From a virus, in the IMG/VR virus record IMGVR_UViG_3300013104_000009, positions 1 to 47,521 of that record: a stretch of DNA of 47,521 bases; one strand, given 5' to 3'. This document shows, piece after piece, positions 26,613 to 45,997 of the stretch. Both the position numbers and the translations under genes were made by a program. The notes under the pieces are model-generated. The model was not told the origin of the DNA and did no database searches. It saw only the letters and a program-made list of their open reading frames with translations. Each line of letters begins with the position of its first letter. Positions within the stretch are counted from its first letter, which is position 1.

Positions 26613-26664
26613 TTGATGGGGTGCCACTGAATCGGTATCATACACCGATAGTAACGGTTTGCAA
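26613..26664. promoter_or_regulatory. Divergent promoters sharing one operator
   Basis: The palindrome ACCGATAGTAACGGT lies at 26644-26658. Leftward: TTGCAA (26664-26659), 16-base spacer holding the palindrome, TATGAT (26642-26637), driving the 26595 operon. Rightward: TTGATG (26613-26618), 17 bases, TATCAT (26636-26641), starting about 26648, inside the palindrome. One regulator could therefore control both early operons. Confidence 0.7.
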
Positions 26665-26678
26665 CTACGGAGTGAAAA

Positions 26679-28439
26679 TTGTCCAACCTTCGCGGATTTC
26701 AACAAAAACTTGATAGCGACGTTGACGGTGCATATCTAGGCGGTGCGCGCGCAGTGATGATGCAACTATCGACCGGTGGCGGTAAGACCGTCATCATGGG
26801 GCATCAGGCGAAGAAGCATATCAACAATCCTTGGAACCATCAGTTCCCGGCCGGTTGCAGCATTGCGCACCGGGGCGAACTGATCGGCCAAATGTCGCAA
26901 CAGCTTGCTCGTGAGAACGTACCGCACGGGCTGATCGCATCGGAAAAAGTCATCCGCACGATTGTTGCCGCACACGTCGAAGAATTCGGACGCACATTCT
27001 ACAACGCGCGCTCACCGTGGCGCGTGGCGTCAGTCGACACCATCACCAAGCGTCAACTAGGCGATTGGCCGGCAACGGTGGGCATGGTGCATATCGATGA
27101 AGCGCACCACGTGTTGCGCGAAAACAAGTGGGGAAAGGCAGCGGCGCTATTTGAGAATGCGCGCTTCTTGCTGCCAACCGCAACACCCGTTCGTGCCGAT
27201 AAGAAGGGGTTAGGCAGTCATGCGCACGGCATCGCCGATGTGCTCGTAGAAGGTCCGCCGATGCGTTGGCTGATCGACAATGCGTATCTGACCGACTACA
27301 AGGTGTACTGTATCAAGCCGGACGATTTGCAAACGGATGGGATCGGCGTTAATGCAAACGGCGAATTCAATCAGGACCAAGCGCGCGAAGCGGTGCACCG
27401 CTCCAAGAAGCTAGTTGGCAGCGTAGTCGATACTTACATCAAATACGCGTACGGCAAGCTTGGCGTTACGTTCGCGCAGGACATCGAAGAAGCCCGCAAG
27501 ATCACCGAAGAATTCAACCGCAAGGGTGTGCCGGCCGCGATGCTGACCGGCGAAGACACCGAAGAACACCGACGCGCGACGATCCGCAAATTCCGCAACC
27601 GTGAGTTGTGGCAGCTAGTCAACGTCGATCTGTTCGGCGAAGGTTTCGATTTGCCGGCAATCGAATGCGTCAGCTTCGCGCGAATGACTGCATCGTTTTC
27701 CTTGTACGCGCAGATGTGGGGCCGCGCGCTTCGCTTGATGATTTCGCAAATACTTGCTGGCGCGTGGGATACCTATAGCGTTGCGCAACGATTCGAATTC
27801 ATCAGGGCGAGCGGTAAGCCGTTTGCCTATATCTTCGATCATGTCGGCAACTTCTACTTTCATAAGGGGCCGCCCGACAAGTCGCGCCTGTGGACGCTTG
27901 ACGCAGGCACCAAACGCAAGTCGGCAACAGATGACGGCATCCCCATGCGCGTCTGTCTTAACGTTGATTGCGCGCTGCCATATGAGCGTGTGTATTCGTG
28001 CTGCCCGTACTGCGGCACCGACGCACCGCCGCCGGCTGAACGCGGCGGACCCGCGCAAGTGGACGGCGACTTGACGCTGATCGACCCGGCATTGCTCGCG
28101 CAATATCGCGGCGAAATCAACAAGATCGATGGTCCCGCACCGACAGTGCTGGGCGTCGCATATCTTGCCGTCATCAAGACGCACAACATCAGGCAAGCGG
28201 CGCAGTTCCGCTTGCGCAGTGCGATGTCGTATTGGTACGCGCAAGTGTGCCGTGAAGATGATGCACGCGTGCATCATCGGCGCTTCTGGTTCACGTTTGG
28301 TATCGACAGCATGCATGCAATGACGCTCGGACAACCCGAAGCGGAAACACTACACGCGCGCATCATTGTGGACCTAACGAATCGCGGTATCATAGTGCCG
28401 TCTGACCTGAATGTTACTAACGAAATGGAGCAAGTATGA
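26679..28439 (+). CDS. SF2 DEAH-box DNA helicase
   Basis: 586 residues from a TTG start with ACGGAG upstream. Helicase motifs in order: Walker A STGGGKT (31-37), DEAH (140-143), motif III TATP (167-170), and in the second lobe MTASFSLYAQMWGRALR (motif VI). The C-terminal third carries CLNVDCALPYERVYSCCPYCG, a zinc-binding knuckle. It resembles RAD25/Ssl2-type phage helicases and would unwind DNA at replication forks. It is first in the rightward early operon. Confidence 0.9.
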   Translation: MSNLRGFQQKLDSDVDGAYLGGARAVMMQLSTGGGKTVIMGHQAKKHINNPWNHQFPAGCSIAHRGELIGQMSQQLARENVPHGLIASEKVIRTIVAAHVEEFGRTFYNARSPWRVASVDTITKRQLGDWPATVGMVHIDEAHHVLRENKWGKAAALFENARFLLPTATPVRADKKGLGSHAHGIADVLVEGPPMRWLIDNAYLTDYKVYCIKPDDLQTDGIGVNANGEFNQDQAREAVHRSKKLVGSVVDTYIKYAYGKLGVTFAQDIEEARKITEEFNRKGVPAAMLTGEDTEEHRRATIRKFRNRELWQLVNVDLFGEGFDLPAIECVSFARMTASFSLYAQMWGRALRLMISQILAGAWDTYSVAQRFEFIRASGKPFAYIFDHVGNFYFHKGPPDKSRLWTLDAGTKRKSATDDGIPMRVCLNVDCALPYERVYSCCPYCGTDAPPPAERGGPAQVDGDLTLIDPALLAQYRGEINKIDGPAPTVLGVAYLAVIKTHNIRQAAQFRLRSAMSYWYAQVCREDDARVHHRRFWFTFGIDSMHAMTLGQPEAETLHARIIVDLTNRGIIVPSDLNVTNEMEQV

Positions 28440-28762
28440 ACACTGTCGGCAAAGATGATGTCATCCGCCACTTGAAGCAGATACGCGCGACGCTCACACA
28501 CGCGCTGACGCAGCCGGACATCAGCGTTACGCGCTTCAATGCGATCCGCGAACAACTGCTGCCGCTCGACGAGGAACTGCGCAAGCTTGGCATTGATCCG
28601 GAGCCGACGCCGCAGATGGGCCACGCGTACGTAAAGCTGACGCGGTATCAACAACGTCGGCGCGCTCGGGCCAGCAAATTTCCATCGTACGAACAACGCC
28701 TGCGCGAGAAGCGCGCGCAGAAATGGCTTGACGCGCAAGGCGCCGACGATGAAAACAATTGA
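28436..28762 (+). CDS. Hypothetical early protein
   Basis: 108 residues, helical and very basic in its second half (QQRRRARASKFPSYEQRLREKR). The start overlaps the helicase stop by four bases (ATGA), and its end overlaps the nuclease start. No family recognised. The position between a helicase and a nuclease and the charge suggest a DNA-associated accessory role, an inference only. Confidence 0.75.
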   Translation: MNTVGKDDVIRHLKQIRATLTHALTQPDISVTRFNAIREQLLPLDEELRKLGIDPEPTPQMGHAYVKLTRYQQRRRARASKFPSYEQRLREKRAQKWLDAQGADDENN

Positions 28763-29243
28763 CGAATGGGCGCATCGGTGGGGCATCCCGGCGCAGGCAA
28801 TGGACGAACTTAAGGCGGTCATGGGCGTTGCGGCACTTAGCGTCATGAGCGTGCCAGATAGCGGTACGGCGCCCGGCAGTGAAGGGCGTCAACAGTCGCT
28901 CGTACGACTCGAAGCCGCGAAGCTCGGCATTCACTTGTTCCGCAACAACAGCGGCGCATTTAAAGACGAGTCCGGGCGCCTGATCCGCTACGGACTCGCG
29001 AATGAATCAAAGCAGGTCAACGAGGTTTTGAAGTCGCCCGACCTGATCGGATGGCGTAAGCGGCTCATCACGCCCGACATGGTGGGGACGATCATCGGCC
29101 AATGCACCATGCGCGAAATGAAGTACGAGGGTTGGACGTTCAATCCGAACGACCCGCACGAGCAGGCGCAGTTCAATTTTTTGAAGTTGGGGATTGCTGA
29201 CGGTTGCGATGCAGCCTTTGCAACCGGCCCCGGAACGTTGTAA
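28749..29243 (+). CDS. VRR-NUC nuclease
   Basis: 164 residues from ATG 28749. The pattern GRQQSLVRLEAAKLGIHLFRNNSGAF, then SPDLIGW, then MREMKYEGW shows the VRR-NUC fold of the PD-(D/E)XK superfamily: a helix Glu, the Asp of SPDL and the E-x-K of EMK. Such proteins cut branched or structured DNA and often sit beside phage helicases, as here. It overlaps the preceding gene by 14 bases. The stop is followed by a short gap to a TetR-like gene. Confidence 0.85.
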   Translation: MKTIDEWAHRWGIPAQAMDELKAVMGVAALSVMSVPDSGTAPGSEGRQQSLVRLEAAKLGIHLFRNNSGAFKDESGRLIRYGLANESKQVNEVLKSPDLIGWRKRLITPDMVGTIIGQCTMREMKYEGWTFNPNDPHEQAQFNFLKLGIADGCDAAFATGPGTL

Positions 29244-29283
29244 CATTCACACCACCAATCGAAACTAACGGAGAATTTCCATA

Positions 29284-29604
29284 ATGGCTCAAGAACGCAT
29301 GACTGCCGAAGCGCGAACCGCGCAACTGATCGCGGCCGGCTACAAGATCGCGAAAGCGAAAGGCATCGCCAAGGTAACGCGCGCCGCCGTGGCTCGTGAG
29401 ACGAAGGTGTCGGACGGCCTGCTGAACCGCTACTTCGGCACACGCGAAGGGCTGCGAACGGCTGTGATGCAGCATGCGGCAGATCAGCGCGACGCTGCTA
29501 CATTGGCAGCCGCCGCCATGGTCTACGAACTTGACGAAATCACCATGACGAAAGCGCTACGTGTCGAAGTGGCACGGTTGCGTATCGGATGGACTCGGAA
29601 CTGA
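29284..29604 (+). CDS. Short TetR-like DNA-binding regulator
   Basis: 106 residues. Residues about 10-55 are a TetR-type helix-turn-helix: AYKIAKAKG-like helix, then VTRAAVARETKVSDGLLNRYFGTREGLR. The ligand-binding domain of full TetR proteins (usually 190 or more residues) is missing, so it would not respond to a small molecule in the usual way. It is in the rightward early operon whose promoter overlaps a palindrome of the kind TetR proteins bind, making it the first candidate for the operator regulator. ACGGAG precedes the ATG. Confidence 0.82.
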   Translation: MAQERMTAEARTAQLIAAGYKIAKAKGIAKVTRAAVARETKVSDGLLNRYFGTREGLRTAVMQHAADQRDAATLAAAAMVYELDEITMTKALRVEVARLRIGWTRN

Positions 29605-29627
29605 CCGGACGCCGCGCCGATACCGTA

Positions 29628-29652
29628 AAAGCCCGCCGCGTGCGGGCTTTTT
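29628..29652 (+). terminator. Intrinsic terminator after TetR-like gene
   Basis: AAAGCCCGC pairs with GCGGGCTTT (stem 29631-29636 with 29642-29647, loop CGCGT), followed by TTTTTC. It ends the helicase to regulator operon. Confidence 0.9.
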
Positions 29653-29662
29653 CATTTTCTGC

Positions 29663-29692
29663 TTGCATTGGAGAAAGTAACGGTTTTATACT
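29663..29692 (+). promoter_or_regulatory. Promoter with operator half-site
   Basis: TTGCAT (29663-29668), an 18-base spacer with AGTAACGGT (29676-29684), then TATACT (29687-29692). It drives the exported protein at 29724 and probably the whole small-gene run to 33095. Only half of the palindrome is conserved, so binding may be weaker than at the other sites. Confidence 0.72.
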
Positions 29693-29723
29693 TGTTTCCG
29701 TTGTCAACCTAACGGAGCGAAAA

Positions 29724-30185
29724 ATGTTACTCACATGCGTTGTATTTGCACTGGTGTCCGGTACCGCCGCCCTGTTCGCGTTTGCGTATCGGATGGACAA
29801 ATGGCACGGTGTGCTTGGCGTCGTCGCGCTTGGCCTCTGGATGTTCAATATGCAGCCGGCGCACGCTCAGGCGCGCGGCGATGAGAATTGGCCTGCGATA
29901 AACCAACTGCCGATGGAACCGATCCTTGTCGGCAACAACATTCTTGGCGATCGTATCATTCTGTTCGCGCAGTTCTGCGGCGGCGAAGGTGACGGTTCGA
30001 GGCGCGATCATATGCACGTGTACGCGGTCTACAACGCGCGCAACACGTTCTTGCAGGGCGGATGCTGGCAGTACGATCCGGCGTTCACCAAGCGCACCAA
30101 GAGCATCAAATTTTTCAGCATGAGCGGTGACGGTTGGGGTAGCTGGCCGCTCGACGCATTCCACAAGCCCCGCTACGTCAAGTGA
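29724..30185 (+). CDS. Exported or membrane-anchored hypothetical protein
   Basis: 153 residues from ATG 29724 (ACGGAG upstream). Residues 1-20 and 27-45 are hydrophobic, and MQPAHAQA at about 43-50 looks like a signal peptidase site. The mature part (about 105 residues) has two cysteines that could form a disulphide (FAQFCGG and QGGCWQYD) and aromatic-rich strands. It is first after a strong promoter. No family recognised; a periplasmic role such as superinfection exclusion is a guess. Confidence 0.78.
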   Translation: MLLTCVVFALVSGTAALFAFAYRMDKWHGVLGVVALGLWMFNMQPAHAQARGDENWPAINQLPMEPILVGNNILGDRIILFAQFCGGEGDGSRRDHMHVYAVYNARNTFLQGGCWQYDPAFTKRTKSIKFFSMSGDGWGSWPLDAFHKPRYVK

Positions 30186-30192
30186 GGAAAAC

Positions 30193-30813
30193 ATGACTCC
30201 CGCTCAAGAAGCAAAAGCATATGCCGCCGCTAACGGTTTTGTGCTCGGCACCATTCCAGCCACGCGCCGCTATACGGTACGGGTGCTGAACAAAGCGACG
30301 GGTGTTGCAATTGACGATCCGATTGCCGAAGTCGGAGGGTACCCGGCAGCGCTGAACGCAATGAAACGTCACGTTGAGGTCAATAGCAATCTGGCGCGCG
30401 CGATTCAACTGGCGACAACGCCGAAGCTGGATGCCGCGATCCTCAGTGACAACGTGCGCGCGATCCTCAGTGTCAACGTGCACGCGATTCAGTTGGCGTC
30501 AGGTGTCGAACTTGATCAACTCGCCGAAGCGTGGAATTTGCCGAAGCGCGAATGTAAGGTATCGGGCAAGCCGCACCCGCAGACCGACGCAGACTATCGC
30601 AATGTGCTGTTGCGCAACAGCGCTCGTCGTATGCCGGTCCCGAAACTCATCAAATATACTCATCGCCTCGAATTCCGTATGCGTCCGGACGGTCATACAT
30701 TCCATTGGGACTACCCGTCACATGCTCAGGCGCTGCGCGAGTTGCGTCAAACCATGTCGAACAAGCAACAGCGCCCCATCTATGTCAACCTGTTCCCGAT
30801 CCGTGAGGCGTGA
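30193..30813 (+). CDS. Hypothetical protein with an internal tandem duplication
   Basis: 206 residues from ATG 30193 (GTGAGGAAA upstream). The N-terminal 60 residues have the feel of a small alpha/beta module (GTIPATRRYTVRVLN). A 24-bp unit is repeated in tandem at 30436-30483, duplicating eight residues around ILSDNVRA. The C-terminus contains FRMRPDGHTFHWDYP. No family recognised. Confidence 0.78.
   Translation: MTPAQEAKAYAAANGFVLGTIPATRRYTVRVLNKATGVAIDDPIAEVGGYPAALNAMKRHVEVNSNLARAIQLATTPKLDAAILSDNVRAILSVNVHAIQLASGVELDQLAEAWNLPKRECKVSGKPHPQTDADYRNVLLRNSARRMPVPKLIKYTHRLEFRMRPDGHTFHWDYPSHAQALRELRQTMSNKQQRPIYVNLFPIREA
30436..30483 (+). repeat. 24-bp tandem repeat, two copies
   Basis: Two in-frame 24-bp units (30436-30459 and 30460-30483) differing at only two bases. 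They add eight residues to the gene without a frameshift and point to recent slippage. Confidence 0.88.
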
Positions 30814-30814
30814 C

Positions 30815-30991
30815 ATGCAACTGACTCAAGCCGAAGTCGACTATCTGCTGAAACAGCCCGACGTCGCGAACACGCTTGCGCGATACAACCGGGCGCAGGC
30901 ATACCAGACTACCGCAGACGATGCGCGCATCGCGCTCGTGAAACGGTCCCGCGAGTTTGAGCGCATCGAGCGCGACACCGCCAAGCGCTAG
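30815..30991 (+). CDS. Hypothetical small protein
   Basis: 58 residues from ATG 30815, two bases after the preceding stop, with GTGAGG upstream. It starts MQLTQAEVDYLLKQPDVANT and is all-helical and highly charged. No family recognised. It lies just upstream of a small gene and an XRE regulator, the kind of neighbourhood where anti-defence genes are found. Confidence 0.7.
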   Translation: MQLTQAEVDYLLKQPDVANTLARYNRAQAYQTTADDARIALVKRSREFERIERDTAKR

Positions 30992-30993
30992 TC

Positions 30994-31203
30994 ATGTCCG
31001 AGCCAATCTTCAACCTAGGCAATCCGGTGAGCAAGCAATGCGCGATGCGTGACGACGGCGTGTGGTTCATTCGTCGCAAGCGTCATAACGCGCCCGGTTG
31101 GTCAGGTTGGGAGTTGGCACCCTTCAACTCACGTCCGGAGTATGCGTGGTACTCCGGGCAGCATGCAAGGTTGCCGCAATGGAAAGTCTCGGGCAGCGAC
31201 TAA
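30994..31203 (+). CDS. Hypothetical small tryptophan-rich protein
   Basis: 69 residues with six tryptophans. The C-terminal half, WSGWELAPFNSRPEYAWYSG, suggests a compact beta fold. Two bases separate it from the preceding stop. It overlaps the XRE regulator start by 25 bases in another frame. No family recognised. Confidence 0.72.
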   Translation: MSEPIFNLGNPVSKQCAMRDDGVWFIRRKRHNAPGWSGWELAPFNSRPEYAWYSGQHARLPQWKVSGSD

Positions 31204-31466
31204 AACGGATACGTAAGCAGCGCGGTATGTCGCAGGATCAATTCGCCCGGATGTTTGGAATTACCGGGCGATCGTATGGAAACATCGAGACGGACCGCAA
31301 TCAGCCGGGCGTGTTCACTGTCGCAACGATCGCAACCCGGCTGAATCTCGATCTTCACACCCTCATATTCGGGAAACCTTATGGAAATGACAAAAGTAAC
31401 GCAAGCGTCGCAAGTGTCGGCACATCTTCAACGCGCAGCAAAGTTTGCGCTTGCTGTGGGCGCTGA
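31179..31466 (+). CDS. XRE-family transcriptional regulator
   Basis: 95 residues from ATG 31179. Residues about 4-60 are a Cro/C1-type helix-turn-helix: LGQRLKRIRKQRGMSQDQFA followed by FGITGRSYGNIETDRNQPG. The tail ends in KVCACCGR, a short cysteine knuckle. Its end overlaps the next gene by 86 bases in a different frame. It could repress this operon or, like anti-CRISPR-associated proteins, control the small genes just upstream. Confidence 0.87.
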   Translation: MESLGQRLKRIRKQRGMSQDQFARMFGITGRSYGNIETDRNQPGVFTVATIATRLNLDLHTLIFGKPYGNDKSNASVASVGTSSTRSKVCACCGR

Positions 31467-31815
31467 TATTCACATGAATGCGGAAGGTGACAGCCTGTTG
31501 GCGAAGTTCGCCGACAGTGATCGTTATCACTTCGATCCGGAGCACGTTACGTTGCACTGTCTCGAAGCGCTCGGGCAGGCGCGCACGTTCGGACTTGTCG
31601 CGTACTCGTACGTGCATGCCGACAAGCTGGTGCGCGGCTTGTCTCCGCTTGTGGTTCGTGTGGTGTTTTGCAATACCGATGTGCGCGTGCAGATCGGTGC
31701 ATCGCGTTGGTACGTCGACGACCACTCCAGCACCCCGGTTGCGATGCGTAAGGCGATCTTGACAGCATTCTGCGCTTATTACGATGAAGCAATTGCGCCC
31801 TATACCGAAGCGTGA
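31381..31815 (+). CDS. Hypothetical protein
   Basis: 144 residues with no family recognised. Alpha/beta in character (LVVRVVFCNTDVRVQIGASRWYVDDH). The start at 31381 lies inside the XRE gene end, and the stop overlaps the next start by 32 bases. The dense overlap with both neighbours and good codon use support a real gene. Confidence 0.75.
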   Translation: MEMTKVTQASQVSAHLQRAAKFALAVGADIHMNAEGDSLLAKFADSDRYHFDPEHVTLHCLEALGQARTFGLVAYSYVHADKLVRGLSPLVVRVVFCNTDVRVQIGASRWYVDDHSSTPVAMRKAILTAFCAYYDEAIAPYTEA

Positions 31816-31993
31816 CTTGCTGCCGTCGTCGCAGCCCGATCATTTCACCCGCGCGCTTGATGAGACGTATGAGCGCGGTTTCTTGCTAGGGCGTGCGGCC
31901 GGAATCGAACATGCGTTGCAATTGCTTCGTGACGCAGACATTCCCAACATTGGCGATATCGTCGCCGCTTTGACCCGGAGTAAATATGGTTAG
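31784..31993 (+). CDS. Hypothetical small protein
   Basis: 69 residues. The start is inside the previous gene and the stop overlaps the next start by eight bases. The middle RALDETYERGFLLGRAAGIEHALQ is one amphipathic helix; no family recognised. Confidence 0.68.
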   Translation: MKQLRPIPKRDLLPSSQPDHFTRALDETYERGFLLGRAAGIEHALQLLRDADIPNIGDIVAALTRSKYG

Positions 31994-33380: not shown

Positions 33381-36008
33381 ATGCACAACTACGACGCACT
33401 ACAGAATGCGTTGAATGGCCCGTTCGCCTATTTGACGCAGTTCCCGCAATTCGTCTTGTGGCAGTTGGAACCGAACCCGCAAGGCGGCAAGCCCCGCAAG
33501 ATGCCGTACCGTGTCGACGGTGCGCGTGGCAGCAGTACGGACCCGACGAGTTGGACAGACGCAGCGACGGCAATGGCTGCCGCGCGCCGTTCCGGTATGG
33601 GGCTCGGCTTTGTGATGACCGACGCAGATCCGATGGTGTTCATTGACGTTGATGGTTGCGTCGTGAATGGTCAATGGGATGCCGACGCACTCGCGACGAT
33701 CGCGCAATTCCCCGGCGCCGCGTTCGAAGTATCCCAATCCTGTACCGGGATGCACTTGTTCGTATGTGGTCAGACGCCCGAAGGTTTCACCGGTCGCAAA
33801 CGCGGCAAGTTCGAATGCTATCGAACCGCGCGTTTCGTTGCGCTCACCGGCACCAACGCAACGGGTAGCGTATTTGACTACGGTGCAAATGTTGCGCAAT
33901 TCATCGCGGATAAGTTCCCGACCGAAGTTAACGACAAAGACGTTGGCCCGTTACGCTATACGACGTCTCCGATTCCCGAGTGGCAAGGACCGACCGACGA
34001 TGACGAGTTGCTGAAACAGTTTCTTGCCGCACCGCGCCCGGCGTCTGCATCCGAAGCGTTCGCATTCCTGAAACCTGACGCACCAGCCGTCAACGCCGTT
34101 GCCGTGAGTAATACCGATCTGTTCAACGCGAACGTTGACGTGTTGTCTGTTGCGTATCCGAGCGATAAGGGCGACGGCTTCGACAAATCGAACGCAGCGT
34201 TCGCGCTCGCATGTCGGCTTGCGTATTGGACCGGCAAGGATTGCGCGCGCATGGAACGGCTGATGAATCGCGCTGCGTTCCGCCGCAGCAAGGCCGACGA
34301 GTATCACGATAGCGCCGTCACGTACATGCAATGGGACGTGATGCGCGCGTGTGCGTTCACCACGCGGGTGATGTTCCAACGTGCTGCCGTTGCGAATGCC
34401 GAAGTTGCCGCCGATGCTCAGTCGGCGTATGACGGCTATTACAACCGCATTGCCGATGCTGGTGACGTGTCGACCATTCGCGGCATCTGTTCAGAAGTTG
34501 GCATTGATCTTCGCATCGATCCGATCAGCCGTAAGTTGCTCGCGGGCCATGTCAACAAGCGCATTACGTTGCTTGGCGAACGCCTGCCAATGAACGATTG
34601 CGAGCAGCTTGTGCGGTTGCGCTCGTCACATCCGGCGCCCGATCGTCAAGCATTGCAGCGTCAGCAGAACATCGCAATGAATCTGCCGGAGGATGCACCG
34701 ACGCTCGCGCCGATCATGACGACTGCGCAAATGCTGGAAGATTTCGTGTTCATTGCCGAAGGGTCGCAAGTTGGTAGCGTGAGCGATCGCAGCTTGTGCT
34801 ACAGCTTCGCTGATTTCCGCAATCTGATGGCAGCGTCGCGCACCATCGCGCCCGATGGCAAGACGTTCGAGCATACCGAAGATTGGCGTGTCCACCCCGG
34901 CCGGCGCAGCGTGTCGTCCCGCACATTCCGTGCGGGCGCACCCGTGCTGACCACCGATCCTAACGGCCGTTGGGCACTCAACATGTGGCGTCCGTCACCG
35001 CCTGCCGCGTACACCATGGACATTGCACCGTTTTACGAACACATCAAATATTTGTTTGGTGAATCAACCGAGCGCTTTCTCGATTGGTTGGCACACATCG
35101 AGCAACAGCCGGGCGTGCTGCCTCATCATGGTTGGCTTCACATTGCCGACAACTTCGGTACGGGGCGCAACTGGTTGTCGTCGGTGCTCGCGCGGTTGTG
35201 GCGCGGGTATGTGGCGCCTAGCGTCAATCTCGATCGGCTCATCATGGGCGATTTCAACGGCCCACTTGCCGGACGAATCCTTGCGGTTGTTGATGAGATT
35301 CGTGCGGGCGGCAGTGAGAACGCGTATCAGATCGAAGGCAAGATTCGCAACATGCTGACGGAAGAAACGCGCGCCATCAATCCGAAGTACGGACGTGAGT
35401 ACATGGAGCACAACGCGTGTCGCTGGCTGCTGTTCTCGAACCACAAGAACGCAATCCCGATGGATGACGGTGACCGCAGATGGGACGTCGTGCATCTGAC
35501 GGCGGATCCACGCCCCGAGCACGTCTATGGATACCTGTACAGCTTGCTCGATCATCCCGGATTTGTCGAAAGCATCCGCGCATGGCTTGGAATGCGTGAC
35601 CTGTCGCGCTTCAATCCGGGCGCCCGGCCGCCGATGACGAAAGCCAAGTCGATGGCGATCGAGGCGAGCAAATCGGATTTCCAGAAAGCTGCGTCGAACA
35701 TTGTGAATCACTGGCCTTCTGACTTCATCACTAGCGCTGACGTTCATTCGATCATGAATGAGGACAGCATGGCGGGAATGGGCAAGAAGCTGACCGCAGC
35801 AATGAAGCATGCGTTGCATGACCGGCAGATGTATTTCGTTGATAAGCAGGTGTACGACCAACAAGGGCAGCGACATCGCATTTGGATTGTTCGCAACGTT
35901 GAATTCTGGATGCAGGATTTGTCGGCTTGGCGCATCAACGACGAGTTGTTGAAGATGGCGGCGATTCCGGGCGGCACCGGTTGGCAAAAGCTGAATTCCA
36001 TATTGTGA
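33381..36008 (+). CDS. Primase-polymerase / helicase fusion
   Basis: 875 residues. Residues about 20-165 are an archaeo-eukaryotic-type primase-polymerase: FIDVDGCV (D89, D91), then SCTGMHLFVCG (S120, H125), then FECYRTARFVALTG. Residues about 580-720 are a DUF5906-type D5-like SF3 helicase: FGTGRNWLSSVL in the Walker A place (593-597), VVDEI as Walker B, LLFSNH as sensor and GDRRW as the arginine finger. The Walker A lysine is missing (GTGRN). It should prime and help unwind phage DNA. A GTG at 33354 gives nine more residues and is an equally possible start. Confidence 0.88.
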   Translation: MHNYDALQNALNGPFAYLTQFPQFVLWQLEPNPQGGKPRKMPYRVDGARGSSTDPTSWTDAATAMAAARRSGMGLGFVMTDADPMVFIDVDGCVVNGQWDADALATIAQFPGAAFEVSQSCTGMHLFVCGQTPEGFTGRKRGKFECYRTARFVALTGTNATGSVFDYGANVAQFIADKFPTEVNDKDVGPLRYTTSPIPEWQGPTDDDELLKQFLAAPRPASASEAFAFLKPDAPAVNAVAVSNTDLFNANVDVLSVAYPSDKGDGFDKSNAAFALACRLAYWTGKDCARMERLMNRAAFRRSKADEYHDSAVTYMQWDVMRACAFTTRVMFQRAAVANAEVAADAQSAYDGYYNRIADAGDVSTIRGICSEVGIDLRIDPISRKLLAGHVNKRITLLGERLPMNDCEQLVRLRSSHPAPDRQALQRQQNIAMNLPEDAPTLAPIMTTAQMLEDFVFIAEGSQVGSVSDRSLCYSFADFRNLMAASRTIAPDGKTFEHTEDWRVHPGRRSVSSRTFRAGAPVLTTDPNGRWALNMWRPSPPAAYTMDIAPFYEHIKYLFGESTERFLDWLAHIEQQPGVLPHHGWLHIADNFGTGRNWLSSVLARLWRGYVAPSVNLDRLIMGDFNGPLAGRILAVVDEIRAGGSENAYQIEGKIRNMLTEETRAINPKYGREYMEHNACRWLLFSNHKNAIPMDDGDRRWDVVHLTADPRPEHVYGYLYSLLDHPGFVESIRAWLGMRDLSRFNPGARPPMTKAKSMAIEASKSDFQKAASNIVNHWPSDFITSADVHSIMNEDSMAGMGKKLTAAMKHALHDRQMYFVDKQVYDQQGQRHRIWIVRNVEFWMQDLSAWRINDELLKMAAIPGGTGWQKLNSIL

Positions 36009-37507: not shown

Positions 37508-37543
37508 GGGCGGTGACGCAGCGATGCGCACCGCCCATTTTTT
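37508..37543. terminator. Terminator between convergent genes
   Basis: GGGCGGTG (37508-37515) pairs with CACCGCCC (37529-37536), followed by ATTTTTT on the plus strand. It separates the rightward terminase/DUF4031 unit from the leftward gene ending at 37542. Confidence 0.85.
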
Positions 37544-37751
37544 ATGCGTAACGACCCATGAACTCGTCGTGAAGGAACTCGATTGCGTTCGCATCGGCGG
37601 ACGCGACGCGGTTGTATTCAGCGTGTTCCGGCGGGAACTCGAAGCATTCGCAGCCTACCAAGCCGATGCGGACCCGCCCGTTATCCAGATGAGCCGTGAA
37701 ATAACCGCCGCAGGTATCTTCTACGATGTATTCGGTGATGTGAGCAGCCAT
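37542..37751 (-). CDS. Hypothetical small leftward protein
   Basis: 69 residues from ATG 37751, preceded by AAGGGGA. It starts MAAHITEYIVEDTCGGYFTA. Acidic and beta-rich, with no family recognised. An operator-containing promoter drives it (37789-37817). The overlapping plus-strand frame lacks a ribosome site, so this strand is preferred. Confidence 0.7.
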   Translation of the reverse strand: MAAHITEYIVEDTCGGYFTAHLDNGRVRIGLVGCECFEFPPEHAEYNRVASADANAIEFLHDEFMGRYA

Positions 37752-37788: not shown

Positions 37789-37817
37789 ATCATAGACCGT
37801 TACTCACGGTCACGCAA
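37789..37817 (-). promoter_or_regulatory. Promoter with operator in its spacer, leftward
   Basis: On the minus strand TTGCGT, 17 bases, TATGAT. The spacer holds ACCGTGAGTAACGGT (37810-37796), one base off the consensus palindrome. It drives the small gene at 37751. Confidence 0.8.
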
Positions 37818-37831: not shown

Positions 37832-38407
37832 TCACGCTTCGACCGTTTCGTCCAAATCGACCGTTGCCGCGTTCGGGTCGGTGCTGGCCGCCATGGTCAT
37901 CAGCTTGGTTGCCATTGCGATCAAATCTTCGCGAGTGCATGACGGTGGGATGAAAATGTGCAAATGGCCGGCGTCGACGCGCACCCCCTCGTGGTGCTCG
38001 GCCGGCTTGCGTGGCGGGCGCACCTTCTCACACGCCAACAGCACTTCGTTGACCGACTTCACCTTAAGCGCCGCTACAAGCGGGCGCAGCGCGGCAACGC
38101 TGTCGACCGGCTTCACACCATCAAGCGCTTGTGCCAAGTCGCCGGACTTTGTCAGATGGTCGTACAGCGCGACGCAGGCGGTTATGCGGCGGTTCACTGC
38201 GCGCCAGTCGAGCGCGCCGGGCTTGTCGCATTGCCAGCCTGCGCCGTTGTAGACCGTCAGCAACGTTTCGCGCCCGAGTCGCTTAGATGGTGCGCATTCG
38301 TACATAACGGCCATCCCAACTGACAGTTCGATTTCGAGTGCTGTTGCCTTGTGCATCGCTGCTTCGACGAGCGCCTTTGTGTATGCGCGGATATGGGTCT
38401 TGTTCAC
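37832..38407 (-). CDS. Hypothetical leftward protein
   Basis: 191 residues from GTG 38407, preceded by AGGGAGA. It starts VNKTHIRAYTKALVEAAMHK and is alpha-helical, with two cysteines near the middle, a basic patch RPPRKPAEHH and an acidic tail. No family recognised. Driven by the operator promoter at 38469-38497. With the next gene it forms a small leftward island inside the rightward half of the genome, so it may be regulatory. Confidence 0.75.
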   Translation of the reverse strand: MNKTHIRAYTKALVEAAMHKATALEIELSVGMAVMYECAPSKRLGRETLLTVYNGAGWQCDKPGALDWRAVNRRITACVALYDHLTKSGDLAQALDGVKPVDSVAALRPLVAALKVKSVNEVLLACEKVRPPRKPAEHHEGVRVDAGHLHIFIPPSCTREDLIAMATKLMTMAASTDPNAATVDLDETVEA

Positions 38408-38468: not shown

Positions 38469-38497
38469 AATCTAGACCGTTAGTAACGGTTTTTCAA
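38469..38497 (-). promoter_or_regulatory. Promoter with a perfect operator palindrome, leftward
   Basis: On the minus strand TTGAAA, 17 bases, TAGATT. The spacer holds the perfect palindrome ACCGTTACTAACGGT (plus 38476-38490). The plus gene at 38526 starts just beyond, so the site could also act on it. Confidence 0.8.
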
Positions 38498-39747: not shown

Positions 39748-39762
39748 AACGTTAGTAACGTT
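39748..39762. promoter_or_regulatory. Variant operator palindrome
   Basis: AACGTTAGTAACGTT is a perfect palindrome about the central G but has A/T in the outer arms where the consensus has C/G. TGGTACAGT at 39727-39735 just upstream is an extended -10-like box. No convincing -35 box is seen. Confidence 0.55.
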
Positions 39763-40654: not shown

Positions 40655-40681
40655 CAACCGCGCCCGCTACAGGAGAAAGAC

Positions 40682-40867: not shown

Positions 40868-40869
40868 CC

Positions 40870-41274
40870 ATGAACTTGCAAGAACTGGAACGACTGTTGA
40901 TCGAAGCGCAACGCGCACTTGATCAGAACATGACGCACGTCGCGGTGCGCGCGATCGTCGCCGCGAAACTGATGGTTCAGGCCGAAGCGGCAACAGCGCT
41001 CGATGGTGTCGAGCGCGGAACGGGCCAGACGTCGCGTCAGATGCTTGCGGCACCGATCGGCGCGACGTTCGTCGTCAAGGACGGCATGAGCGATTACGCG
41101 ATACAGCTTTCCCACATGCTCGGGCGTGGCGACCTGACGATCGTTTGGGAATCGGCTATTCTCCGGTCGACGCGTACGTGGGGTGCAGTAGTTGTCGACC
41201 ATGCGGTGACGTTGAGCGAAGCCGACGCAGTGCGGATTGCCAATATCTCGATCAACAACCGGATCGTACCGTGA
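40870..41274 (+). CDS. Hypothetical protein
   Basis: 134 residues. The first 50 are helical (LQELERLLIEAQRALDQNMT); the rest is mixed with a beta-rich TWGAVVVDHAVTLSEADAV. Its stop overlaps the next start by four bases (GTGA). No family recognised. Confidence 0.75.
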   Translation: MNLQELERLLIEAQRALDQNMTHVAVRAIVAAKLMVQAEAATALDGVERGTGQTSRQMLAAPIGATFVVKDGMSDYAIQLSHMLGRGDLTIVWESAILRSTRTWGAVVVDHAVTLSEADAVRIANISINNRIVP

Positions 41275-41459
41275 CGAAATACCGCGTCGAATATCGCGTG
41301 TTGGTCAGAGAGCCGGTGCGCGTCGGGCCACTTACAATCGACGTCGGCGTGTGGTGGTCGGAACGGTGGGAACATCGCACCGAGCATGTCAATGCCGCCG
41401 AACTCGACGCGTTGTTGGCCCGTGGCGTGCACGTACTATTTGTGAAGGAATCGCGATGA
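41271..41459 (+). CDS. Hypothetical small protein
   Basis: 62 residues from GTG 41271, coupled to both neighbours. Beta-rich (KYRVEYRVLVREPVRVGPLT) with a tryptophan pair. No family recognised. Confidence 0.7.
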   Translation: MTKYRVEYRVLVREPVRVGPLTIDVGVWWSERWEHRTEHVNAAELDALLARGVHVLFVKESR

Positions 41460-41626
41460 TCAACAAAGAAGCCGCGCCTAACATGGCAGTCATGGTCGCA
41501 ATGCAAATGAGCCAGCTAGAAGGCGTGCTATTGGCATGTGACGATTCAGTCGAACGGGCGCGAATCGAAAACGCGCTGTCTGCACTGGATTCGTTGTTTA
41601 GATTTTACGAGGCAGCAGCCAAATGA
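41456..41626 (+). CDS. Hypothetical small protein
   Basis: 56 residues from ATG 41456, coupled to both neighbours. Helical, starting MINKEAAPNMAVMVAMQMSQ. No family recognised. Confidence 0.68.
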   Translation: MINKEAAPNMAVMVAMQMSQLEGVLLACDDSVERARIENALSALDSLFRFYEAAAK

Positions 41627-41763
41627 TTAACCTGTGGGTTCGGATGGTTCAGGACATGCAGCATGCGGCGCTCGTTGCGATGTGGATGCCGTGCGTCGAT
41701 TCGACAAGCTTCATGTCGTGGCGTCCACCATCAGACGGTTTCCCCGCCATTGCAGGTTGCTGA
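41623..41763 (+). CDS. Very small hypothetical protein
   Basis: 46 residues, ATG 41623 overlapping the previous stop by ATGA. It has four tryptophans and no clear ribosome site of its own. The next gene starts three bases after its stop, so it fills the operon neatly; that is the main support. Confidence 0.5.
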   Translation: MINLWVRMVQDMQHAALVAMWMPCVDSTSFMSWRPPSDGFPAIAGC

Positions 41764-41765
41764 AA

Positions 41766-41939
41766 ATGACGACAGTAGCTCTTTGTAAATGCCCTCGATG
41801 CGGTGGTGACGCATACGTTAGTGTGGGCACCGATGAGTATCAGGACGGCACGTTGTACGATTATTTGACGATGTATTGCGAGACTGGTTGTCGGTGTGTA
41901 ATAGGCGACCACGAAGATGACTTTCCGGACCTGCCGTAA
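41766..41939 (+). CDS. Small zinc-ribbon protein
   Basis: 57 residues. CKCPRCGGDAYV near the start and CETGCRCV later give a four-cysteine zinc ribbon. Acidic tail ending DDFPDLP. No family recognised. Last in the run before the terminator at 41943. Confidence 0.72.
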   Translation: MTTVALCKCPRCGGDAYVSVGTDEYQDGTLYDYLTMYCETGCRCVIGDHEDDFPDLP

Positions 41940-41942
41940 CAT

Positions 41943-41974
41943 AACGCCCATGACTTGCACTCATGGGCGTTTTT
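41943..41974 (+). terminator. Terminator abutting the terminase large-subunit start
   Basis: AACGCCCATGA (41943-41953) pairs with TCATGGGCGTT (41961-41971), followed by TTTC. It ends two bases before the next ATG, so read-through transcripts would hide that start. No ribosome site is present between it and the ATG. Confidence 0.87.
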
Positions 41975-41975
41975 C

Positions 41976-43592
41976 ATGCCGTATCCCTATCAGCACGATT
42001 TCAAGAATCCAGACTACCCGCGCATCTTTCAATGGCGCGTCGACAAGTTGCGCGCGATCCGCGCGGATCCGCACTTGCTGGTTGCGCTCAAAACGCACTA
42101 TCGACACAACCCGATCGACTTCATCGAAGATTGGGGCTGTACGTTCGACCCGCGTAACGTTGGCACATCGCAGCCCGCAACGTTCCCGCTGATCCTGTTC
42201 CCCCGCCAGCGCGAATTCCTGCAATGGGTGCTCGACCGATGGAAAGCGCAGGAATTCGCGCTTAGTGACAAGTCGCGCGACATGGGGCTGTCATGGATGT
42301 GCGTTGCGCTTGCGTCATCACTCGCACTGTTCAACGACGGCTTCACTGCTGGCTTCGGTTCGCGCAAAGAAATCCTCGTCGACCGGGCCGGCGACCCTGA
42401 CTGTCTGTTTTTCAAAGTCCGCATGTTCCTGTCGCTCGTGCCCGTCGAGTTTCGCGGCGGGTGGGCGATGGGTGGGCGCGAATGCGACAAGTCAATGCTC
42501 ATCACGATCCCGGAAACTGGTGCCATCATCCGGGGCGAAGCCGGCGACAACATCGGCCGGGGCGGACGCGCGTCAATCTACTTCGTCGACGAGGCCGCAT
42601 TCATCGAGCGCCCGCAACTGATCGATGCGGCGCTGTCGCAGAACACCAAATGTCGTATCGATATCAGTTCTGTCAACGGACTGGACAATCCGTTCGCTGA
42701 GAAGCGGCATAGCTGGCCCGAGCACCGCGTCTTTACGTTCCGTTGGCACGACGATCCGCGCAAGGATGAGGCGTGGTACAAGCGTCAATTGGATAACCTG
42801 AATCCGTTGATCGTTGCGCAAGAAATCGACTTGGACTATTCCGCATCGAAACAGGGCGTCGTGATTCCGTCAGCATGGGTGCAATCGGCGATTGGTGCAG
42901 CGCGCAAGCTTGGCATCGTCATCACTGGCGCGAAGAAAAGTTCGCTCGACGTTGCCGACGAAGGGCTAGATCTGAACGCGTGGGCCGGCCGGCACGGCAT
43001 CGAGTTGCAGCACTTGGACTCGTGGAGCGGTCAAGGCAAAACGATCTTCTGGACGACGCAGCAAGCGTTCCTACGATGCGATCAAAACGGCTACGACAAC
43101 TGCCGGTTCGATAGTGACGGGTTGGGCGCAGGCGTACGAGGCGATGCGGCTGCGATCAACGATTCGCCCGAGCGCGCGAACAGTAAGCGCAAGTTCGAGC
43201 CGTTCCGGGGCAGCGGCGCCGTTGTGAACGCAGAGAAGCTGGTGTTCAAAGGTGACGATCGCGGCGTCGGCGCGCGAAAGAATGTTGACTTCTTCAAAAA
43301 CTACAAGGCTCAGTCATGGTGGGCACTGCGCGAGCGTTTCGAAAAGACGCATCGTGCCGTGACGGATGGCGCGGTGTTCCCGCCGGACGAACTGATTAGC
43401 ATCAGTGAGAACATCCCCACGAATCTGCGCACGAAGCTGATTGCCGAACTGTCGCAGCCTACATACGATATCGACACGACGGGCAAGCTGCTGATTGACA
43501 AACAGCCAGACGGCACGCGCTCGCCGAACCATGCCGACGCGATCATGATCCTGTACGCTCCGGAAGAAAAACGTTCGTCGCTGTTTGCATAA
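41976..43592 (+). CDS. Terminase large subunit
   Basis: 538 residues from ATG 41976. ATPase: SDKSRDMGLSWM in the Walker A place, IYFVDEAAF as Walker B, SSVNG as the coupling motif. Nuclease: SLDVADEG with its aspartate, DSDGLGAG and SPNHADAIMI give the three acidic residues of the RNase H-like domain. It would cut and translocate DNA into the head with the portal and the small subunit at 36155. A hairpin lies immediately before the ATG and no ribosome site is seen. It lies about 5 kb downstream of its small subunit, an unusual separation. Confidence 0.92.
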   Translation: MPYPYQHDFKNPDYPRIFQWRVDKLRAIRADPHLLVALKTHYRHNPIDFIEDWGCTFDPRNVGTSQPATFPLILFPRQREFLQWVLDRWKAQEFALSDKSRDMGLSWMCVALASSLALFNDGFTAGFGSRKEILVDRAGDPDCLFFKVRMFLSLVPVEFRGGWAMGGRECDKSMLITIPETGAIIRGEAGDNIGRGGRASIYFVDEAAFIERPQLIDAALSQNTKCRIDISSVNGLDNPFAEKRHSWPEHRVFTFRWHDDPRKDEAWYKRQLDNLNPLIVAQEIDLDYSASKQGVVIPSAWVQSAIGAARKLGIVITGAKKSSLDVADEGLDLNAWAGRHGIELQHLDSWSGQGKTIFWTTQQAFLRCDQNGYDNCRFDSDGLGAGVRGDAAAINDSPERANSKRKFEPFRGSGAVVNAEKLVFKGDDRGVGARKNVDFFKNYKAQSWWALRERFEKTHRAVTDGAVFPPDELISISENIPTNLRTKLIAELSQPTYDIDTTGKLLIDKQPDGTRSPNHADAIMILYAPEEKRSSLFA

Positions 43593-43645
43593 GCGTTAGT
43601 AACGGTCTATACTCCCCACGGTTACACCAACTTTGGGGAGTTTTT
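43585..43645 (+). promoter_or_regulatory. Operator promoter overlapping a terminator
   Basis: TTGCAT (43585-43590), 17-base spacer with AGCGTTAGTAACGGT (43592-43606), TATACT (43608-43613). A terminator-like hairpin, ACTCCCCA (43611-43618) with TGGGGAGT (43634-43641) and T5, overlaps the -10 box. Transcripts from this promoter start near 43620, in the loop, so only read-through RNA from the terminase gene should form it. Confidence 0.78.
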
Positions 43646-43649
43646 CATT

Positions 43650-43715
43650 ATGTGGATTGGAACGATTTTTATGTTGTGGTTCGGCATGTGGCGTGCCGCG
43701 TGGGGGATGCGATGA
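43650..43715 (+). CDS. 21-residue tryptophan-rich peptide
   Basis: A 21-residue frame from ATG 43650 with four tryptophans and one central hydrophobic stretch (GTIFMLWFGMWRAAWG). GGGGAG lies nine bases before the ATG, and the stop overlaps the next start by ATGA, so it is placed like a real gene at the head of an operon. It could insert in the membrane, or be a leader that controls the next gene. Too short for homology. Confidence 0.55.
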   Translation: MWIGTIFMLWFGMWRAAWGMR

Positions 43716-43948
43716 GCTACGATCGCGACGAGTACAACGCGCGCAAGCCGGTTGTGACGCGCAGTGCAGACCCGACATACGTTCGGCTGTCTGATGGGAT
43801 GGAGTTGCAATTGCAGCGCGAACTTGAAACCTTGCTGCACAAGGCGCACATGCTTGGCTACGTCATCACGGTTGATCTGAAATCGGTCGAGCCGCTGGCA
43901 ATGGGCAAGTATCAGATGGTCGGCCACGTTCGGGGGATGCGGCTGTGA
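43712..43948 (+). CDS. Hypothetical small protein
   Basis: 78 residues from ATG 43712. The pattern YVRLSDGMELQLQRELETLLHKAHMLGYVITVDL suggests an alpha/beta fold (positions 22-56 of the protein). Coupled to the micro-protein before it and the two-helix protein after it. No family recognised. Confidence 0.7.
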   Translation: MSYDRDEYNARKPVVTRSADPTYVRLSDGMELQLQRELETLLHKAHMLGYVITVDLKSVEPLAMGKYQMVGHVRGMRL

Positions 43949-44094
43949 TGACGTTTGTCTACTTGCTCGCGGCATGTGGCGTGTTCGCCCTGTCGGTGCA
44001 TGCCGTGCCGCGCGTTACGCGGTGGTCACAATGGGCGCTGTTTGTGCTCGCGTTGGTCGGCGCCGTTACGATCGTTAAGGGGGTGTTGCAATGA
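43948..44094 (+). CDS. 48-residue membrane protein with two hydrophobic helices
   Basis: Starts at ATG 43948 in the previous stop and ends in the next start (ATGA at 44091). Two hydrophobic segments: residues 1-19 (TFVYLLAACGVFALSVHAV) and 29-45 (WALFVLALVGAVTIVKG). A small membrane protein of holin or membrane-modifier kind is likely; no family can be named. Confidence 0.65.
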   Translation: MTFVYLLAACGVFALSVHAVPRVTRWSQWALFVLALVGAVTIVKGVLQ

Positions 44095-44447
44095 CCCTAT
44101 CCGACATTTCCCGCCTCTTGAAGTACGCCAACGTACCGCAAAGCAAAGTCGTCGAATGCATGCACCCGAGCCCGGCAATCGAAATCCACGTTCCGATGAC
44201 GCATTTTGTCGTGATGACCGAATGCGTTAGGAAGTTGCAATTGTTCGGGCAAGTGTTACGCGTGATACCGCTGACGTCCAACGACGTGCGGCGCGGCGAG
44301 CATGTGTACGTGAAGGTAACGGGCAGCGTGGCGCCTGCCATGAAAAATGTTGGCGCGTCGTCAGATGAGCAACGACGTCAACGCATGGCAACCGCACGCG
44401 TGCGCAATAGTGGCGTTGTGGTACAGTGTGCATGGGTCATCGCATAG
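44091..44447 (+). CDS. Hypothetical protein
   Basis: 118 residues with a beta-rich middle (GQVLRVIPLTSNDVRRGEHV) and a basic C-terminus (DEQRRQRMATARVRN). It overlaps the small membrane protein. No family recognised. An extended -10-like sequence, TGGTACAGT, lies near its 3' end. Confidence 0.72.
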   Translation: MTLSDISRLLKYANVPQSKVVECMHPSPAIEIHVPMTHFVVMTECVRKLQLFGQVLRVIPLTSNDVRRGEHVYVKVTGSVAPAMKNVGASSDEQRRQRMATARVRNSGVVVQCAWVIA

Positions 44448-44596
44448 CAACGCGAACGCCGCTTCAACTGCCCGCTTCGTGCTTCCTTTGGACATCGAGC
44501 GGTGCGGGCCACAACCCCGGTAACCGGTAACGAGTTGTGCTTGTAGTGAACTCCCTGTGACGACCTAACGCCCCGCGCTGCGGGGCGTTTTCTTTT
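44426..44596 (+). ncRNA. Possible structured noncoding RNA or 5' leader
   Basis: No gene is seen from 44448 to the terminator at 44567-44596. Two stems are visible: GCCCGC with GCGGGC, and CACAAC with GTTGTG enclosing GGTAACCGGTAACG. TGGTACAGT at 44411-44419 could be an extended -10 box, which would give an RNA of about 170 bases. This is a weak call from structure and layout alone. Confidence 0.3.
44567..44596 (+). terminator. Intrinsic terminator before the outer-membrane gene
   Basis: AACGCCCCGC (44567-44576) pairs with GCGGGGCGTT (44580-44589), loop GCT, followed by TTCTTTT. The operator promoter follows 11 bases later. Confidence 0.9.
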
Positions 44597-44606
44597 GTGC
44601 GACGGA

Positions 44607-44635
44607 TTGCAAAAGCGTTAGTAACGGTCTATGAT
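44607..44635 (+). promoter_or_regulatory. Operator promoter for the outer-membrane protein
   Basis: TTGCAA, 17 bases, TATGAT. The spacer is AGCGTTAGTAACGGT plus two bases (palindrome 44614-44628), the same 15 bases as at 43592. It drives the gene at 44671. Confidence 0.82.
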
Positions 44636-44670
44636 TCAATCCTGAAACATAACCATATGGGGAAAACGTC

Positions 44671-45354
44671 ATGTCTGTTCGTACCATCGCAGCAGTTGCT
44701 ATCGCAGTCGCATCGTTCGGCGCCCATGCCGAATCTTGGTTTCAATTCGAAGCAGGCGCAGGTTTCGCCAAATATGAAGATCGCGGCGATGGTACGTGGC
44801 AGCAATGGGGTGCGCCGGGCAATACCACCAACATGAAGGCGCCGATCCTGACGGCGGGCATTACCGGCCCGATCATCACGCGCGGCAAGTGGGGCGTTGA
44901 CTGGCACGCCGACTATCAATTCATCGGCACGTCGTCGGCATCGTGCATGTGCACCATCACCGATGAGAACTACGACAACCGCGCGCACAAGATCGTCGAA
45001 AACATCCCCAACATGCCGTTGGAGCAATACAACGGCCACGGGCATACGCAGGGTCTGTCGCTGATGGTTGAACCGTACTACATGGTGCGTGGGTTCCGCG
45101 TTGGCGTGCTGGCCGGCCTGTTCCTGAACGTTCCGACGTGGCACGAAACGGTAACGCAAGTGCCGGGCACGCAGTTTCAATCGGTCGCGGTTGCGTCGCG
45201 CCACACGATCAATCTCGGACAGACGGTCGGTGTCAGCGTCTCGCGCGGCAACTTTTCCGTCCGTTACCAGTACTTCAAATTGCCGTACTATGGCAATCCG
45301 TTTCCGCCCATCTTCAAGGGCGCTCACACCGTAAGTCTCATTTACAAATTTTGA
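44671..45354 (+). CDS. Phage-encoded outer-membrane beta-barrel protein
   Basis: 227 residues. Signal peptide about 1-20 ending FGAHA. The mature part alternates polar and hydrophobic residues in strands (SWFQFEAGAGFAKYE, GVDWHADYQFIG, GLSLMVEPYYMVRGFRVGVL, NFSVRYQYFKL) and ends VSLIYKF, with the terminal Phe expected for insertion by the Bam machinery. About eight strands are expected. Such phage proteins can alter the cell surface or block further infection, but this function is inferred. It has its own operator-controlled promoter and a GGGGAAAA ribosome site. Confidence 0.82.
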   Translation: MSVRTIAAVAIAVASFGAHAESWFQFEAGAGFAKYEDRGDGTWQQWGAPGNTTNMKAPILTAGITGPIITRGKWGVDWHADYQFIGTSSASCMCTITDENYDNRAHKIVENIPNMPLEQYNGHGHTQGLSLMVEPYYMVRGFRVGVLAGLFLNVPTWHETVTQVPGTQFQSVAVASRHTINLGQTVGVSVSRGNFSVRYQYFKLPYYGNPFPPIFKGAHTVSLIYKF

Positions 45355-45369
45355 TAGGACATACCAATC

Positions 45370-45963
45370 ATGGCAAAGTTGATCGATACATTGATTCAAG
45401 ACCTCATCATGGCAGCAGGCGACGCGCGCATCGCGCGACCGAACGAGGCGACCGTGGGAAAACGCCTGACTGATGCAAAGAACGCCATCAAGTCGCAGTT
45501 TCGCGAAGCCGGCGACAAGATCGCATCGCTGCGCAACAGTCTGAACGCGGCCGAAGGGAAGATTCGCGAACTGACGCTGACCGGCGGCAGGCTGGCCGCA
45601 TACAGCGCGTTCGATGCGGAAACGGTCAAGCCCGGTGACGAAATTGAAGTCCGGGATGTCGCCGGCTTTGGATCCAATGTGTGGCGCAAAGCGACATTCT
45701 TGACATTGACATCGCGCGGGCACGTGCTCAGTGAATCGAGCGATAGCGTCGCCGCAAGTCAGCACGAGCAACAAAACGTGCGCGTACCCGTCAAGACGCA
45801 AGAACTGCAACTGTTCGTTAATGTGATGCGCAATCCGGCTCCGATGAGCGCAAAGGCATACGCGTATCTGTCGGCAGACGAAGCACTGCGCGCATTCGAA
45901 ACCGGTGGCCATAACATGCTTATCGCCATCGCCCAACCGGTAACTGTTACCGTCGCGCCGTAA
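45370..45963 (+). CDS. Hypothetical protein
   Basis: 197 residues. The first 75 residues are helical and coiled-coil-like (LTDAKNAIKSQFREAGDKIA), the rest beta-rich (AETVKPGDEIEVRDVAGFG). It starts 15 bases after the outer-membrane gene with an AGGAC site, so both may be co-transcribed. No family recognised. Confidence 0.75.
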   Translation: MAKLIDTLIQDLIMAAGDARIARPNEATVGKRLTDAKNAIKSQFREAGDKIASLRNSLNAAEGKIRELTLTGGRLAAYSAFDAETVKPGDEIEVRDVAGFGSNVWRKATFLTLTSRGHVLSESSDSVAASQHEQQNVRVPVKTQELQLFVNVMRNPAPMSAKAYAYLSADEALRAFETGGHNMLIAIAQPVTVTVAP

Positions 45964-45982
45964 CAACACGTTGGGAAGTGTT

Positions 45983-45997
45983 ACCGTAAGTAACGGT
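45983..45997. promoter_or_regulatory. Operator palindrome
   Basis: ACCGTAAGTAACGGT differs from the consensus palindrome at one position. TTACCG (45981) and TTATCG (46004) are the best boxes nearby, with a 17-base spacer containing the palindrome, but both are weak. Confidence 0.55.

Follow-up and report, generated by a model that had tools for sequence, protein, structure and literature searches.

A 15-base-pair (bp) palindrome recurs along the phage contig IMGVR_UViG_3300013104_000009 of IMG/VR (the window, that is, the whole stretch analysed: 47,398 bases followed by an end repeat of 123 bases, 47,521 nucleotides in all) and is probably the operator of a phage-wide regulon, one that would be bound by a dimer of a small TetR-like protein of the phage (mini-TetR) and would repress promoters of the host polymerase, with feedback, during lytic growth. 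The basis of this proposal consists of the sites themselves, their promoter geometry, their conservation, the co-occurrence of sites and gene, the predicted fold of the protein, and position-for-position equivalents in other phages.

Across the whole window, the palindrome ACCGTTA-S-TAACGGT (ACCGTTAGTAACGGT) gave 22 strand matches at three or fewer mismatches against 0.73 expected, the largest count in 100 shuffles being five, and the backward version of the pattern had no match in a scan of the whole record. A symmetric-matrix scan returned 14 sites of at least 9 bits, compared with 0.8 in Markov-randomised sequence; it is mildly circular because the matrix, built from the clade's own sites, includes those of the window, the mismatch count being independent of it. 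At 18 bits or more, eight sites were found, namely the seven listed in the original prediction, all of which are present in the sequence where it had placed them, and a further one at 5503-5517. Seven of the eight lie outside genes, although coding sequence makes up about 93% of the window (binomial P ~8e-8, with gene calls from the analysis's own script); the strong sites avoid genes rather than occurring within them at equal density. The claim that all sites are intergenic holds for the listed sites and fails for 5503 and for a weaker conserved site at 28410, which lie at gene ends. Both predicted half-sites were recovered, as were the five promoters said to hold a site in their spacer, whereas 5503, the sites at the helicase 3' end and before the TetR-like gene, and the position of 45983 ahead of the portal gene had been missed. 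The palindrome is real and very probably an operator, and a genome-wide operator set is a well-supported prediction from the sequence. The sites, with the associated promoters and genes, are as follows; P1 to P4 denote the divergent promoter before the helicase gene, the helicase 3' end, and the positions before and after the TetR-like gene, and the coordinates of the promoters at 26613 and 29663 were counted by hand.

5503-5517: strong operator-like site (22.2 bits) overlapping the stop codon of gene 5055-5510, with gene 5528 following 10 bp on.
22954-22965: half-site, seen in the sequence, upstream of the DNA polymerase gene 21017-22912.
26613-26641 (+): rightward promoter TTGATG-N17-TATCAT, predicted to drive the helicase/TetR operon; conserved in relatives.
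26644-26658: operator P1 (20.3 bits), between the divergent genes 25210-26595 (-) and 26679-28439 (+).
26679-28439 (+): DNA helicase (PF00271/PF04851, phrog_16), first gene of the operon holding the TetR-like gene.
28410-28424: site P2 (14.7 bits), at the helicase 3' end, ahead of gene 28436.
29258-29272: weak site P3 (9.7 bits), directly before the TetR-like gene and touching its ribosome-binding site.
29284-29604 (+): mini-TetR, 106 amino acids (aa), the proposed operator reader; TetR_N domain without the full ligand-binding domain.
29663-29692 (+): P4 promoter TTGCAT-N18-TATACT with the half-operator AGTAACGGT (29676-29684).
37796-37810: operator (20.0 bits), in the leftward promoter TTGCGT-N17-TATGAT (promoter score 14) for gene 37542-37751.
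38476-38490: perfect operator (26.9 bits), between the divergent genes 37832-38407 (-) and 38526 (+), in the leftward promoter TTGAAA-N17-TAGATT.
39748-39762: operator (22.3 bits), just downstream of the -10-like TACAGT, before gene 39796.
43592-43606: operator (23.1 bits), in the rightward promoter TTGCAT-N17-TATACT, which directly follows the terminase gene.
44614-44628: operator (23.1 bits), in the rightward promoter TTGCAA-N17-TATGAT of a predicted outer-membrane protein, 44671-45354.
45983-45997: operator (22.5 bits), about 290 bp ahead of the portal gene; this gene begins at 46273, wraps the contig ends to 605 and heads the structural operon.

The strong sites of the window and of 16 related contigs were compared with shuffled flanks for the presence of a bracketing -35/-10 pair, and a bracketing promoter score of at least 14 was obtained for 50% of 88 distinct strong sites as against 1.5% with shuffled flanks. 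The offset is almost constant, with the start of the -35 box 6-8 bases ahead of the site and that of the -10 box 1 or 2 bases past it. Five sites of the window (26644, 37796 and 38476 on the minus strand; 43592 and 44614 on the plus strand) are flanked by -35/-10 pairs and occupy exactly the spacer of a sigma70-type promoter, with about 1 bp to spare. P1 lies inside a leftward promoter (TTGCAA, 26659-26664; TATGAT, 26637-26642) and also directly downstream of the -10 box of a second, divergent promoter, the rightward one at 26613-26641, whose start region it covers; 38476 may have the same divergent arrangement. The P4 promoter comes after a terminator-like hairpin, downstream of the TetR-like gene. 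The promoter around 5503 is weak in the window and reads TTGGCG-N17-TATAGG in the relative G005. At 45983, no good or canonical -35 box was found, and the operator sits about where it would be. As a side observation on the same region (45983-46060), a -10-like sequence stands about 8-10 bases downstream of the operator in several relatives.

This geometry bears on two other accounts of the palindrome. A signal for replication, partition or packaging that falls between genes by coincidence might also be repeated, symmetric and intergenic, but such signals would not be expected to keep a constant distance from -35 and -10 boxes, whichever the strand, which makes this explanation highly improbable. 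The sites could alternatively be stoperators, or roadblocks, which halt elongating polymerase besides or instead of acting at promoters. Conserved sites outside spacers would suit such a role (5503 across a stop codon, 28410 where the helicase gene ends, and 39748 and 26644 (+) downstream of a -10 box), and there are precedents for repressor sites scattered along a genome (PMC6550527, PMC9283540). However, half of the strong sites fall exactly within promoter spacers, and the window site is symmetric while the stoperators of mycobacteriophages lack symmetry and mainly point one way; we therefore hold this role to be unlikely, though deserving of some weight.

Relatives were identified by scans for the helicase and terminase. 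An exact palindrome scan of all viral contigs returned 105 stretches and, since about 100 would be expected by chance on our estimate, relatives were restricted to palindrome contigs in which the terminase or helicase was present too. Most proteins shared with them are 40-90% identical to those of the window; no phage record was matched by the window half in a megablast search. Sites recur at orthologous gene borders in eight relatives. In the helicase region they stand between that gene and the recombination operon diverging from it, at the helicase 3' end and ahead of the TetR-like gene; farther on, they flank 37832-38407 on either side, precede 39796 and the outer-membrane protein gene, follow the terminase by a few bases, and lie upstream of the portal. 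The sites have not been lost from the same promoters in close relatives, and this recurrence, together with gene avoidance, supports the original prediction of a genome-wide control circuit.

Site by site, P1 is occupied in every relative that covers it, and a site lies 3-14 bp past the terminase gene in nearly every relative covering the 43592 position. The 5503 site is kept at the same place in G001 (17.1 bits), G002, G003, G005, G006 and G013; 38476 in G001, G003, G005-G008, G014 and G015; and 44614 in G002, G005, G006, G008, G012-G014 and G016. Sites precede the counterpart of gene 39796 in G001, G005, G006, G008, G012 and G014, and stand at a matching distance from the portal in G001-G003 and G005-G008. 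Weak sites (13.9 bits each) lie 36 bp from the same DNA polymerase gene in G001 and G007. The P2 place scores 11-21 bits in G001, G002 and G004-G009, a conservation that may in part be that of the encoded amino acids (TVTNE); P3 is stronger in G002, G004, G005, G006 and G009 (12.6-12.9 bits); and the P4 half-site is kept in close relatives, a full operator being present there in G009 and G019. The centre of the site is mostly A/T instead of G/C in G009, G015 and G016, the shift in G009 extending to all strong sites and to the weak site before TetR.

The likely reader of these operators, on present sequence evidence, is mini-TetR. Its N-terminus matches TetR_N (PF00440, E=1.1e-7, 31.9 bits against a cut-off of 24), and residues 1-79 match phrog_8723 (E=1.3e-15), a family without assigned function. 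The AlphaFold2 model has six helices (predicted local distance difference test, pLDDT, 89) and ends a few helices past the helix-turn-helix. Its best Foldseek matches are the DNA-binding part of LuxR/SmcR/HapR, TetR-family proteins, among which LuxR has DNA-bound structures from a repressing as well as an activating context; the TM-score normalised by target length is only ~0.3, and none of the matches reaches E 0.001, as is usual for a chain this short. The C-terminal ligand-binding and dimerisation domain of a full TetR protein (~200 aa) is lacking from the 106 residues. Having TetR_N only, the protein is therefore to be regarded as a TetR-type DNA-binding protein and not as a full TetR regulator. 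Its gene, probably part of the operon driven from the 26613 promoter, is present in every complete motif-bearing relative at ~50-67% identity, with an almost invariant helix-turn-helix and a near-invariant recognition-helix region (VSDGLLNRYF), and is bordered on both sides by sites that are weak in the window and kept in relatives.

Of the three candidate readers put forward originally, only the TetR-like protein is found in all complete relatives and is favoured; the XRE (31098/31179) and RHH (33185) proteins were rejected because of their patchy presence in motif-bearing relatives, the former matching in three relatives only and the latter missing from G009, which has sites. It is quite unlikely that the operators are read by either of these or by a borrowed host regulator. 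The XRE protein does have a DNA-binding fold, conserved sites would also be expected from a host factor, and a host factor that binds phage promoter palindromes has been published, namely the host protein SrpA in Pseudomonas phage K5 (PMC5945682). A host factor nevertheless leaves unexplained both the clustering of sites around the phage TetR gene and the pairing of diverged TetR genes with diverged palindromes at the same places.

This pairing emerged from more distant phages. Although tblastn of the window TetR against phage records gave no match at E 0.01, a distant homologue led to mini-TetR genes, situated between helicase and primase, in the isolated phages Psp6, MSW-3, Silvanus, B2, JD001, SppYZU01 and Scuro, and the positions P1-P4 were compared. 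G019 carries CCGTWA-N-TWACGG at all four positions (score 50 against a best shuffle of 30), the palindrome also heading its de novo list. Psp6 has TCATAA-N-TTATGA at P1-P4, JD001 has TTGACG-N4-CGTCAA at three of them and Edwardsiella phage MSW-3 has the JD001 palindrome at two, with 0 of 25 shuffles reaching the score in each of these phages. The JD001 genome (L267) holds 11 such sites at no more than one mismatch, nine of them outside genes, and the palindrome overlaps the -35 box of many of its intergenic promoters; the same pattern returns in the Jedunavirus BUCT_49532, where one site precedes the TetR gene. Coding-repeat artefacts top the de novo motif lists of MSW-3, Scuro, SppYZU01 and G009, the signals of MSW-3 and G009 being clear only in the four-position test, and Scuro offers two overlapping candidates at P1 and P3 (TTATTG-N-CAATAA and TTGACA-N4-TGTCAA), neither of which was chosen. 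The occurrence of different palindromes at the same positions lends support to one ancestral network whose operator sequence would have changed between lineages.

Two further palindromes were observed that are not tied to the TetR genes of their genomes. CTATAG-N8-CTATAG occurs in four distant terminase relatives that also have a mini-TetR homologue (G021, G022, G023 and G025; L053, L058, L065 and L094), where it spans the spacer and -10 box of TTGAC promoters. In G030 (L049), five exact copies of TATACC-N8-GGTATA (0.00 expected) lie at 16454-18914 in near-identical promoters, mostly before small genes.

Like the targets of an immunity repressor, the sites ascribed to mini-TetR extend to leftward, rightward and structural operons, and the protein might accordingly be imagined as a lysogeny-type master repressor that keeps the entire phage silent while it persists in a carrier or plasmid-like form. 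Neither integrase nor resolvase was detected in nine genomes (no PF00589 match, and no PF00239 match over the cut-off), no partition protein appeared among the window proteins in general Pfam scans, the sole way in which partition genes were looked for, and a peptide-pattern scan of 84,980 bacterial genomes found no helicase relative. Jedunavirus and similar relatives are described as virulent. Such a repressor is hence quite improbable, and integration is unlikely given the lack of an integrase or resolvase and of bacterial helicase relatives; the circuit is therefore read as a timing and feedback repressor during lytic growth.

In the proposed lytic circuit, binding, dimerisation, repression, timing and the outcome at the portal promoter are what we infer. 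A dimer of the 106-residue protein would bind the palindrome and exclude host sigma70 RNA polymerase at most promoters, because the site fills the -35/-10 spacer or covers the start point. On infection the promoters would be free, and early transcription would yield the helicase, the recombination genes and mini-TetR itself; as the latter accumulates it would close the early promoters, including its own operon promoter at 26613-26641, and restrain its own gene via P3. Mini-TetR would in this manner set the timing and extent of early transcription; it may also keep incoming relatives from being expressed.

Several points weigh against this proposal. No operator was found in the mini-TetR phages Silvanus, B2, SppYZU01 and PD0307. 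The window on its own is not significant in the four-position test (12 of 25 shuffles reach its score), as P2-P4 are weak there, and only some of the genomes rise above a control with random neighbourhoods of the TetR genes, a control made noisy by coding-region palindromes that inflate the background. P3 in the window, at 9.7 bits, is a match of which ~0.8 per genome would arise by chance. Mini-TetR is without the usual TetR dimerisation domain, and one family would have to accommodate site spacings that differ between lineages (N1 versus N4). Simple repression at 45983 is doubtful owing to the absence of a good -35 box; activation from this operator is possible, being a guess that the sequence allows at the portal promoter. 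We assign a small chance to a broader scheme, a class of virulent phages sharing one orthologous mini-TetR network with rewritten operators at fixed positions, in which the window's group would combine spacer repression with portal activation, the operator replacing the -35 box.

The proposed circuit shares with TetR/tetO of Tn10 a TetR-type helix-turn-helix, a short palindrome with a one-base centre among promoter elements, and autoregulation. Tn10 TetR is ~207 aa long, has a ligand-binding, dimerising C-terminal core and serves one divergent promoter pair, whereas the window protein, at ~100 aa, is too short to include such a core, and the phage genome has at least eight strong sites along its length. 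The putative TetR proteins of Jedunavirus and its relatives (Klebsiella JD001 gp45, Shewanella SppYZU01, Acinetobacter Scuro) belong to the same small family and share the helicase-primase operon position; they are annotated by name only, and the JD001 palindrome is a 16-bp sequence over the -35 box, as opposed to the 15-bp site of the window. In cluster A mycobacteriophages (L5, Bxb1), each phage repressor has many sites, one near its own gene, and motif and repressor diverge together (PMC6550527). The window likewise has many sites (eight strong and weaker conserved ones), some near the proposed regulator gene. Cluster A stoperators are 13-bp sequences of temperate phages with an integrase or parABS; the window sites are, in contrast, near-perfect palindromes in sigma70 promoters of both strands, paired with a TetR-type protein and with no lysogeny module found. 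In its working, the set would amount to a stoperator-type genome-wide repressor system minus two defining features, the asymmetric site and lysogeny. SrpA and K5 also combine palindromes in phage promoters with a small regulator, but SrpA is host-encoded, required for efficient phage replication, and has few phage sites only (PMC5945682).

Three other features of the window were recorded in passing: a predicted structural-operon protein joining a NUDIX domain to DUF2213 (1479-3224), a primase-like gene with NrS-1 polymerase-like and DUF5906 domains (33381-36008), and a small open reading frame without a Pfam match (31784-31993), shared with nine relatives at 47-81% identity (at 70-81% with four of them).

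Phages that are virulent and have a 'putative TetR' gene are common, many having been isolated on Klebsiella pneumoniae. No targets of a phage mini-TetR, nor phage TetR operators, were described in the open-access literature searched, a silence that is weak evidence because only open-access papers were covered. The present analysis predicts DNA targets for a phage mini-TetR and suggests that such a protein would control most of the phage rather than one gene. Orthologous networks with changed operators at kept positions would make the co-evolution of a repressor with its many sites testable, and may have a bearing on cross-immunity between related phages used together.

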